Source: Minisyncoccota bacterium (lineage in GTDB: Bacteria; Patescibacteriota; Minisyncoccia; Minisyncoccales; Minisyncoccaceae). Taken from it: a stretch of 33,017 nt of DNA. This document shows, in pieces, positions 30,583-32,822 of the stretch (its first letter is position 1; each line of letters begins with the position of its first letter). The translations under genes and the position numbers were made by a program. Below the pieces are notes generated by a model. It saw only the letters and a program-made list of their open reading frames with translations. It did not search any database and was not told the origin of the DNA. The stretch is taken from assembly GCA_028717005.1 (NCBI GenBank), contig JAQUOQ010000002.1:1-33017 (forward strand), in the 5' to 3' direction.

Positions 30583-31614
30583 CTATTTTCTTTCTTTTAA
30601 AACCACTTTTAGCTCTATTTCTTCTTTGCCCCGCAAAACTAGCAGAGACACTTCGTCGCCGATTGAACAATCTGAAACCATATCGGATAAAGAGCTGTCT
30701 TGGGTAATTTTTTTGCCGTTTATTTCAAGCACGATATCATATTCTTTAAGCCCCGCGGCTTCAGCGCTGGAATTTTTGGCAACGGCCGGCTCGCCAAACA
30801 TCTCCCGTACAATCAAGGCACCGTAATTTACCGGCAGCTTATTGGCTTTGGAAATTTCTTCGCTTAATAAAATATATTTAACGCCTAAATAGGGCCTTTT
30901 GATTTTTCCCCCTTTTTTAACTTCCTTCAGGTCCTCCTTGATGTAATTAATTGGCAAAGCAAAACCGATGTTTTCCGCGCCCATAATCATGGCTGTATTT
31001 ATCCCAACGACATGCCCCTGCATATCAACTAATGGCCCACCGGAATTGCCGGGATTAATAGCAGCGTCGGTTTGTATTAGTCCCCTCAGATTTGTGGCTT
31101 TCGCGTCAAAACCATTATAGGCGGTAATTTTCCGGCTCAAGCCGGATACTATGCCCGCGGAAAGAGTGTCCTCAAACTCCCCCAGCGGATTACCGACGGC
31201 CAAAACCGATTCTCCCAATTCCACCTTGTCTGAATTGCCAAGCCTTAAGAACGGTAATTTCTTTCCTTCTATTTTTAGAATAGCCATGTCTATCAGCGGA
31301 TCTTTGGCAAGAACCTGTGCCGGATATTTGTGGTCCGGGTCTATTATTACCGTAAAATCAGCCTCTTTGTCTTCCACCACGTGATTACAAGTAAGAATAT
31401 ACCCGTCCGCGCTTACTATAAATCCGGATCCTCCGCCAATCTTTGTTTTTTGGCTGCCTTCCTTCATTTTTTTCGGTAAAGCTATTTTCTCCCCCCTAAC
31501 AGGGACAAAATAAAACTCTTCTATCTGCGGCAAATCCCTGGATGCAACGATAGTTATAACAGCCGGACAGACTTTTTTGGCGATTGCTATAATTGGCGAT
31601 TTTCTCCGTATCAT
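30583..31614 (-). CDS. HtrA/DegP-like (S1C) trypsin-like serine protease with PDZ domain
   Basis: 343 aa; GSGFIVSADGYILTCNHVV (His), DPLIDMAILKI (Asp), QTDAAINPGNSGGPLVDMQGHVVGIN (Ser); PDZ KNSSAEAAGLKEYDIVLEINGK. Confidence 0.94.
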   Translation of the reverse strand: MIRRKSPIIAIAKKVCPAVITIVASRDLPQIEEFYFVPVRGEKIALPKKMKEGSQKTKIGGGSGFIVSADGYILTCNHVVEDKEADFTVIIDPDHKYPAQVLAKDPLIDMAILKIEGKKLPFLRLGNSDKVELGESVLAVGNPLGEFEDTLSAGIVSGLSRKITAYNGFDAKATNLRGLIQTDAAINPGNSGGPLVDMQGHVVGINTAMIMGAENIGFALPINYIKEDLKEVKKGGKIKRPYLGVKYILLSEEISKANKLPVNYGALIVREMFGEPAVAKNSSAEAAGLKEYDIVLEINGKKITQDSSLSDMVSDCSIGDEVSLLVLRGKEEIELKVVLKERK

Positions 31615-31693
31615 AATTTGAGTTTTTATAGTTTATACATGTATTATAAACTAATTTCAAATAAAAAACCACTTATTAAAAAGGGCTTCATTG

Positions 31694-31766
31694 TGTCCCC
31701 GGCAGGAGTTGAACCTGCGACCTTTGCCTTAGGAGTGCACTGCTCTATCCTCTGAGCTACGGGGAC
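31694..31766 (-). tRNA. tRNA-Arg(CCU)
   Basis: Reverse complement GTCCCCGTAGCTCAGAGGATAGAGCAGTGCACTCCTAAGGCAAAGGTCGCAGGTTCAACTCCTGCCGGGGACA; 7-bp acceptor, D-arm GCTC/GAGC, T-arm GCAGG/CCTGC, anticodon loop CTCCTAA; CCA not encoded. Confidence 0.9.
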
Positions 31767-32427
31767 TCATTTTCTGTTTTATTAAATTAATAAGATTGTC
31801 TATTTTTCTTCGTGCCGAAACATCATAAACAGACACTCGACACATTCCATAAGGATGCCTTTCCAGGCTTTTGCTCCCCAAACCCACTTTTAAAATTTCT
31901 GGTTTTTGGAATCTTTCTAAAGAAAGATTAGTAATTTTCGACCAATATTCCTCGGCCTCTTTAACATTACCGTTTTTAGCTATTCTAACCATTATTTTAA
32001 TCTTATTGTCGTTTACCAGAATAATCTCTCGAAAAAACCTCATCATTATTCTTACCATCTCGGCGTCTGTATTTGTAAAAATAGCGCTGGGATTGCTATT
32101 GCTGTTTCCTCCCTCTGCCCAGTAAAGCATTGTTCCGGATATTAATAAATGGTTTTCAGATAAATTGAAATTTCTGAATTTTTCTTCTGCCCAACTCTTT
32201 GAATCTTCCCTGCTTTTCTTTGCCGAATTAATTAATCCGCTAATTAACTTCGTATTCAATATTTTCTTTTTTAGTCTATCTTTTTGAATTTCCGTTAATT
32301 CGATATCGCAACACCACCTTGAAATTGTGCTTTTTGCTACTAAAACCAAATCTCTTATCTCGCCATAAGATAAACCTTCTTTCCTTAAAACTATAACCTT
32401 TGTATATAAATCGATTTTCCTTCGCAT
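31729..32427 (-). CDS. HTH-containing protein with a possible LAGLIDADG-like/endonuclease-like C-terminal domain
   Basis: 232 aa; HTH KEGLSYGEIRDLVLVAKSTISRWCCDIELTEIQKDRLKKKI; then LLISGTMLYWAEGGNSNSNPSAIFTNTDAEMVRIMMRFFREI. C-terminus MSPRSSEDRAVHS* is encoded mostly by tRNA-Arg. Confidence 0.65.
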   Translation of the reverse strand: MRRKIDLYTKVIVLRKEGLSYGEIRDLVLVAKSTISRWCCDIELTEIQKDRLKKKILNTKLISGLINSAKKSREDSKSWAEEKFRNFNLSENHLLISGTMLYWAEGGNSNSNPSAIFTNTDAEMVRIMMRFFREIILVNDNKIKIMVRIAKNGNVKEAEEYWSKITNLSLERFQKPEILKVGLGSKSLERHPYGMCRVSVYDVSARRKIDNLINLIKQKMSPRSSEDRAVHS

Positions 32428-32467
32428 ATATTATAGTATCAATTTTTACCGAAAATTACAACACAGA

Positions 32468-32514: not shown

Positions 32515-32590
32515 GGGCCCATAGCGCAGCTGGTAGCGCGCCTCTATGGCATAGAGGAGGTCAGGAGTTCGAATCTCCTTGGGTCCACCA
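32515..32590 (+). tRNA. tRNA-Ala(GGC)
   Basis: GGGCCCATAGCGCAGCTGGTAGCGCGCCTCTATGGCATAGAGGAGGTCAGGAGTTCGAATCTCCTTGGGTCCACCA; anticodon loop ATGGCAT; encoded CCA. Confidence 0.95.
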
Positions 32591-32731
32591 CTCCGCTCAC
32601 TAAAGTGAGCTACGCGGTGCAAGCACCACATCGCTCGTTGCGCAAGCTACGCGATGTGCAAGCGCCGCATCCAATCCACAAAGAGTTACGCCTGTCCCGC
32701 AAAGCCTGGGCGAAGTGGGACGGTGCAAGCA
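32588..32731 (+). repeat. Tandem array of structured tRNA-flank repeat units (A 32588-32625, B 32626-32664, C 32665-32731) plus a degenerate D from 32732
   Basis: Units start CCACTCCGCTC / CCACATCGCTC / CCGCATCC / TCACTTCGC; A, B and C end in (G)TGCAAGC(A/G); A and B share AGCTACGCG and have distinct complementary arms. Confidence 0.65.
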
Positions 32732-32762
32732 TCACTTCGCAAGGACTACCCTTAATCGTGTT

Positions 32763-32782
32763 GCGGAGCAACTCTAGTTCAG
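32763..32782. repeat. 20-bp repeat GCGGAGCAACTCTAGTTCAG, copy 2
   Basis: Identical to 20884-20903. Confidence 0.85.
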
Positions 32783-32822
32783 AACACCCTGTTGATTAAA
32801 CAAAACACTTTTTAGGAAAAAA

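Follow-up and report, generated by a model that had tools for sequence, protein, structure and literature searches.

The gene described here, which encodes a 232-aa protein with an N-terminal HTH, is probably (we estimate a probability of about 0.6) a free-standing, homing-type mobile element made of a single gene, belonging to an undescribed family in which each lineage keeps to the gene of one tRNA isoacceptor, its seat. We count in favour of this reading the seating of the genes beside tRNAs, the stop codons that fall within tRNAs, the fidelity of lineages to their seats and the junctions that are filled in one genome and empty in another. The same holds for the orphan tRNA 5' pieces that share the seat's isoacceptor, a duplicated tRNA-Ile half at locus L127, a tRNA-Arg type and orientation that go with the gene across 17 genomes, the identical tRNA-Ala of genomes G012 and G020, the family's patchy presence, its decayed copies, a highly conserved glutamate and the introns in seat tRNAs.

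A gene that ends inside a tRNA, and its relatives

The window, by which we mean the whole stretch of DNA analysed, is one entire contig of 33,017 bases from a genome of 657 kb in 59 contigs. The relevant features are:

31729..32427, minus strand: tRNA-seated HTH protein gene, 232 aa; conserved body approximately residues 1-220 (profile and AlphaFold boundaries)
31693..31766, minus strand: tRNA-Arg(CCU), the seat, a 'type A' allele (ARAGORN, allele comparison)
32430..32435, minus strand: putative -10 box TATAAT of the gene (consensus match, three bases ahead of the ATG)
32515..32590, plus strand: tRNA-Ala(GGC), upstream of the gene and divergent from it; serves a paralogue as seat in G014 and other relatives
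30583..31614, minus strand: HtrA-like serine protease gene, 3' of tRNA-Arg; the anchor for locating filled and empty sites in relatives

The ORF ends AAA ATG AGT CCC CGT AGC TCA GAG GAT AGA GCA GTG CAC TCC TAA. The first base of tRNA-Arg(CCU) is the G of the AGT codon, such that the final residues are encoded by the tRNA, and the stop codon (TAA, 31729-31731) coincides with tRNA nt 36-38, that is, the last anticodon base and two loop bases. The gene itself lacks a stop, which the tRNA supplies. This same-strand overlap, with twelve codons wholly or partly within the tRNA, is as the first-pass annotation had claimed, save that its start coordinate of 31694 was off by one. RNase P processing would presumably remove the 3' end of the ORF. 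Orthologues seated on tRNA-Arg have their stop at nt 36 or nt 48 of the tRNA or past its end, and, judging by these variable positions, the tRNA-encoded tail looks to be under no selection. Since the gap between TATAAT and ATG is too short for a normal leader, the true promoter or the start is uncertain. Immediately past tRNA-Ala, at 32591-32790, lies a repetitive GC-rich stretch (CGCGGTGCAAGCACCACATCGC...) in AT-rich surroundings.

Homologues were gathered by protein similarity alone, and their loci were picked from the top of score lists, so that weak homologues are under-represented. The first round gave 14 homologues, all of them 5' of a same-strand tRNA; two of these tRNAs are intron-bearing. 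In the order and phylum sets together, the conserved domain ends no more than 110 bp away from a tRNA in 138 of 149 distinct homologues, and this tRNA is on the same strand in 137 of the 149; same-strand placement on the 5' side characterises 137 of the 138 tRNA-proximal cases. The association of homologues with tRNAs that the first-pass annotation had proposed to look for is therefore present, with a preference for both strand and side. By comparison, a same-strand tRNA lies between -120 and +100 bp of the stop in only eight of 373 control ORFs drawn from 400 kb of same-order genomes (2.1%, versus 92% of the family; Fisher p ~4e-100, with slightly different distance measures for family and controls, and homologues that are not independent). 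Stops within the tRNA itself are found in 58 of the 149 homologues and in none of the 373 controls (Fisher p ~2e-36); 33 of these 58 lie at nt 8-10, where the conserved U8-A9-G10 is read as TAG, and 12 at nt 13-15. Nineteen isoacceptors serve as seats. A clade of five exceptions (L097, L098, L100, L103 and L112) lies directly 3' of tRNA-Glu(UUC), on the same strand. Same-strand tRNA seating across the family is thus demonstrated by comparison.

The family is present in 8 of 21 genomes of the host family, in 105 of 196 of the order (with at most five copies each) and in 103 of 380 in a sample of the phylum, and the order and phylum scans include decayed copies with internal stops. To look outside the phylum, GTDB contigs were scanned with a single pattern (ALYWAEGxK), which matched 464 relatives; the best 80 loci were kept, a choice favouring the Gln clade. 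In these best 80 of 464 loci, 78 of 82 homologous ORFs terminate within or close to a tRNA on their own strand, which is tRNA-Gln(UUG) in nearly every case, and this seat is kept in Omnitrophota, ANGP1 and nine Streptomyces loci. One locus (L273) is an Uhrbacteria contig, and relatives also occur in MAGs labelled Bdellovibrionaceae and Desulfobulbaceae, which may be mis-binned. Contigs from IMG/VR carry relatives as well, many within tRNA arrays, on either side and some on the other strand; at L277-L293 they lie within large tRNA arrays of viral contigs, which are possible vectors. A viral scan using the window protein as single query gave no match, nor did the queries tried against INPHARED (phages) and PLSDB (plasmids). 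The earlier description of such proteins as common in CPR genomes is correct but too narrow, since Omnitrophota, ANGP1, Streptomyces and large viral contigs also carry the family.

Changes of seat label and host family were counted on a quick ML tree of 149 homologue proteins. The seat label changes 22 times for 20 labels (minimum 19; shuffled mean 106.8), and host family 81 times for 22 families. Arg-CCU, Arg-UCU, Arg-UCG and Gly-UCC each form a single group, the Asn, Phe and Thr seats being less tidy. Comparison of the sequences thus demonstrates that clade corresponds approximately to isoacceptor, each lineage being tied to one tRNA type. Within a seat, the nearest relative comes from the same host family in 36 of 49 cases (8.9 when shuffled), which indicates that descent is partly vertical, with moves across families; since much within-seat inheritance looks vertical, a tRNA-linked regulator stays a rival. 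With dN/dS values of 0.06-0.19 in seven pairs (the eighth is saturated), the gene is, by this measure, under strong purifying selection.

Filled and empty sites, and probable traces of insertion

Seventeen genomes of the host family yielded the tRNA-Arg/htrA locus, and five of them (G000, G007, G009, G010 and G012) hold an intact gene there. Occupation of the same tRNA-Arg locus in all relatives, which the first-pass annotation had named as an argument against its own proposal, is therefore not what is seen. In G008 the 3' end of the gene is retained next to an assembly gap, and G014 has a paralogue on tRNA-Ala. The filled genomes, except G007, have a distinct 'type A' tRNA-Arg oriented as htrA; the empty ones mostly have a 'type B' tRNA-Arg opposite to htrA, with G015 and G017 carrying type B in the same orientation. 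Type A occurs without the gene in G020, and G007 is mixed. Both types are found within each of genera g4 and g8, and the tRNA-Ala of G012 is identical to that of G020 (htrA 72%), yet only 74% to that of G009 (htrA 90%). This mixing of types within genera, together with the mismatch between tRNA-Ala and htrA, shows that tRNA genes are being exchanged at this locus.

In the conserved array Ile-Val-Leu-Val-Phe-Gly and the Arg-Ala pair, many of the junctions span less than 60 bp if empty; filled, they mostly reach 690-820 bp. Within genus g4, the ftsH stop adjoins tRNA-Ile(UAU) in G008, G009 and G011, and G010 carries one family gene with its own promoter exactly between the two. The Phe-Gly junction is 5-6 bp in G009, G010 and G012 versus 730 bp in G011. 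At both sites the insert is a clean single gene, outside any intron or intein and without transposon ends, and neither terminal repeats nor a target duplication were seen by reading. Filled and empty alleles at conserved targets are thereby demonstrated by comparison, and these tRNA arrays, including those of g4, provide the empty sites in sister genomes that had earlier been suggested as a check. Parsimony favours gain of the gene at such junctions, precise loss by conversion being the alternative.

By eye, 25 filled and empty tRNA-Gly(GCC) genes show no diagnostic difference. Immunity through a recoded anticodon stem was rejected: the tRNA-Gly genes of G011 (filled) and G010 (empty) differ only there, and no rule held across the 25. 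In the g4 tRNA arrays (L324-L328) the anticodon stems of tRNA-Ile and tRNA-Gly differ strongly between congeners, and tRNA-Phe and tRNA-Val(GAC) are almost identical between congeneric genomes. In L328 (G008) the insert between tRNA-Ile and tRNA-Val(GAC), at ~678-1570, was rejected as a family member, being by reading a RelB/RelE-like toxin-antitoxin pair.

An orphan 5' tRNA piece of the same isoacceptor lies directly upstream of the gene at 12 of 135 loci, where about one is expected, at a threshold (score 12, start at nt 1-3) that was set after seeing the results and then compared with other isoacceptors, which give 0-2 in the same test. The pieces start at nt 1-3 and end at nt 16-42. Against each locus's own seat tRNA the search is nearly negative, and it turns positive only when every allele of that isoacceptor is included; at L047 and L019 the piece is closer to other genomes' alleles than to the tRNA behind the gene. 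Four loci with an Asn seat have orphans that break off around nt 29-31 and, by reading, lead into a common left end; these four may stem from one event. At L127 a lone extra tRNA-Ile(UAU) 5' half follows the gene, and then an intact tRNA-Ile. The window locus has no orphan 5' tRNA piece upstream of the gene. Upstream matches to 3' halves were set aside, the four strongest being, by reading, tRNA-Met 3' ends, probably of intron-bearing tRNA-Met genes missed by ARAGORN. Insertion into the tRNA is well supported at a minority of loci, and the simplest reading of the orphans would be that the gene enters at the anticodon arm and that a 5' half travelling with it restores the tRNA. Since the anticodon arm tells isoacceptors apart, entry there would explain the isoacceptor specificity.

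We propose that the protein, in which an HTH is joined to an alpha/beta domain with a conserved glutamate, would open its target, the tRNA gene, within the anticodon arm. Repair from the donor would then leave, in order, the 5' piece of the resident tRNA, the gene, and the donor tRNA 5' half joined to the resident 3' half; because of this joining, a working tRNA would be rebuilt directly behind the gene. The resident 5' piece would decay afterwards. On sequence comparison, the tRNA allele exchange and the orphan pieces fit endonuclease-driven transfer with co-conversion. Mobility by cleavage is our best inference, and repair would probably follow this route. The suggestion in the first-pass annotation of a selfish element that integrates at tRNAs gains from the tRNA seating, the empty sites and the element-like behaviour; nuclease activity, the position of the cut in the DNA and the route are what we infer.

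The protein, its promoters and introns in seat tRNAs

Neither Pfam nor NCBIfam yielded a match above cut-off for the window protein, and the PDB yielded none of note; PHROGs gave one weak transposase-HTH match (E 0.002). The AlphaFold model (pLDDT 93.3) comprises an HTH at residues 2-39, a helix at 46-85 and an alpha/beta C-terminal domain, and, with a domain scan of members, it bears out the N-terminal HTH already noted from the sequence. A cross-phylum alignment shows no variation at R15, W38, G106, N119, W162 and G194 and hardly any at E105; this glutamate, in the LYWAEG motif helix, is 98% conserved. A LAGLIDADG relationship had also been suggested. In a PDB profile search the seven best matches are all to I-DmoI (E 0.007-0.018) and cover the helix with E105 and the one after it; LAGLIDADG_3 matches two of 59 family members, and hhalign against CPR LAGLIDADG_3 domains gave p 0.002 but a probability of 14%. 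Entries annotated as LAGLIDADG in the viral library score no better than E 0.17. With either the full model or the C-terminal domain, Foldseek against the PDB found no LAGLIDADG protein among the 50 matches listed, and no match of any kind at E <0.001. With a best I-DmoI profile E of 0.007 and no Foldseek support among these 50 matches, the LAGLIDADG fold is not established, and assignment by fold (the four-stranded DNA-binding saddle) was rejected. Nor did the C-terminal domain match a plain transcription factor, which would have spoken against the earlier proposal.

Other assignments were rejected as well. For a tyrosine-integrase island, Pfam and PHROG scans found no recombinase domain beyond the HTH, and the gene lies 5' of the tRNA; for an IS630-type transposon there is only sub-threshold HTH similarity (residues 4-65) and no DDE domain match; for the WhiA regulator, the HTH is N-terminal here and no WhiA model matched.

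Upstream regions of family genes are enriched for GGTTCRA, the universal tRNA T-loop core (GGTTCGA in 19 versus 0.5 expected), and 40 of 141 contain the promoter palindrome GAACY...RGTTC, versus 0.35 expected; the motif is absent from the window's Arg clade. These palindromes may mediate autorepression, which is known for I-TevI through a target-like operator (PMC2988022). The T-loop core GGTTCRA recurs in the palindrome, but an operator mimicking the cognate tRNA was rejected, the palindrome's match to the gene's own tRNA scoring 9.77 versus a mean of 9.62 and a maximum of 9.95 for other clades' tRNAs.

Introns are present in 11 of 138 seat tRNAs versus 4 of 250 elsewhere (p 0.004, uncorrected for relatedness; 5 of 251 with a seat duplicate). 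Of nine loci submitted to Rfam, seven were confirmed as carrying group I introns, and those in seat tRNAs sit in the anticodon loop. At L010, L018, L021, L030, L124, L126 and L151 group I introns lie in Asn, Thr or Phe seat tRNAs directly behind the gene. A seat tRNA with an intron and an adjoining free-standing gene is the arrangement of collaborative homing, in which a free-standing gene lies beside a target with an ORF-less intron (PMC3984707).

Alternative explanations and known systems

The gene could instead encode an isoacceptor-linked regulator, whose HTH would bind the palindromes in its own promoter and control a transcript that includes the downstream tRNA, seat fidelity being the product of old vertical inheritance and many losses. 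The palindrome counts, the same-strand co-transcription geometry and the stable tRNA-Gln seat in Streptomyces speak for this, as do the vertical signal and the purifying selection, which fits a host function too and which we count, with that signal, against the homing-element reading. Close relatives, however, express the same tRNAs without the gene, the orphan tRNA pieces indicate insertion, one clade lies 3' of tRNA-Glu, some viral copies are on the other strand and the motif is lacking in the window's own clade; we consider such a regulator unlikely, if a serious contender. More doubtful is a domesticated former homing endonuclease, from a family once mobile that now survives chiefly as relics or as regulators that were retained: conserved seats together with the vertical signal, strong constraint and decayed copies would all suit it, whereas retention of the glutamate in nearly all copies and filled/empty polymorphism within one genus would not.

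tRNA genes are common integration sites, and a different gene pair does lie between tRNA-Ile and tRNA-Val in G008, so that the gene might be one cargo among foreign DNA gathered at a hot spot through integrases or recombination. Single-gene inserts without an integrase, the near-uniform strand and side and the use of one isoacceptor per clade make this very improbable. Short ORFs running into tRNAs are also present in the window, for example at 31618-31755 (plus strand), and could be taken to mean that an ordinary gene reads into the tRNA by chance, but the family-wide count (92% versus 2.1% of control ORFs) refutes this and leaves it with next to no credence. Against the homing-element reading itself stand, besides the vertical signal and constraint, the restriction of orphan pieces to a small minority of loci, the window not among them, the Foldseek result with respect to LAGLIDADG, and the lack of a visible difference between filled and empty tRNA-Gly genes that would protect the rebuilt tRNA.

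Tyrosine-integrase islands at tRNA 3' ends likewise enter a tRNA gene, which is made whole again by a piece that they bring along; they carry a 3' end and an integrase, whereas the family here would carry a 5' half and one unrelated gene. In phage T4, segB is located between tRNA-Arg and tRNA-Ile. SegB and other free-standing homing endonucleases spread by driving gene conversion of the neighbouring tRNA region (PMC2988022). Like segB, the present genes are single and free-standing and lie next to tRNA genes; SegB, a GIY-YIG enzyme, has one phage tRNA intergenic region as target, whereas the family, known from sequence, consists of unrelated HTH proteins spread over ~19 isoacceptors in bacterial chromosomes and fused in frame to the tRNA. 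I-Ssp6803I, of a cyanobacterial tRNA-fMet intron, is set apart by its description as intron-encoded and confined to one tRNA. With LAGLIDADG homing endonucleases (I-DmoI; the CPR rRNA-intron enzymes, PMC11270868) the protein shares motif-helix profile similarity and a conserved acid; unlike them, it has no fold match, lies outside introns and inteins and bears an N-terminal HTH. WhiA (DUF199) joins an HTH to a homing-endonuclease-related domain (PMC3984707, PMC11701221) and is alike in this general plan, but is a conserved regulator with the endonuclease-like domain first and the HTH last, whereas here the HTH comes first and the gene is tRNA-seated and patchy. Searches confined to open-access full text gave no description of such a tRNA-seated family, and tRNA goes unmentioned in the paper on the rRNA-intron endonucleases of CPR bacteria (PMC11270868).

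The family, whose hundreds of members span several phyla, follows one rule, namely one tRNA type, on the same strand, often with the tRNA's conserved bases as the stop, and the window member matches no Pfam or NCBIfam model above cut-off. A more far-reaching proposal is tentative, and we would not yet bet on it: that this is a new class of single-gene mobile element with a DNA-cleaving fold of its own, directed at one anticodon arm per lineage, which would rebuild the tRNA with the 5' half it carries, spread tRNA alleles between species and, at sites shared with group I introns, provide the helper nuclease for collaborative homing. The presence of members in cultivable Streptomyces opens the family to testing. 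If the proposal is true, the carried 5' half would be the mirror image of integrase attachment sites.
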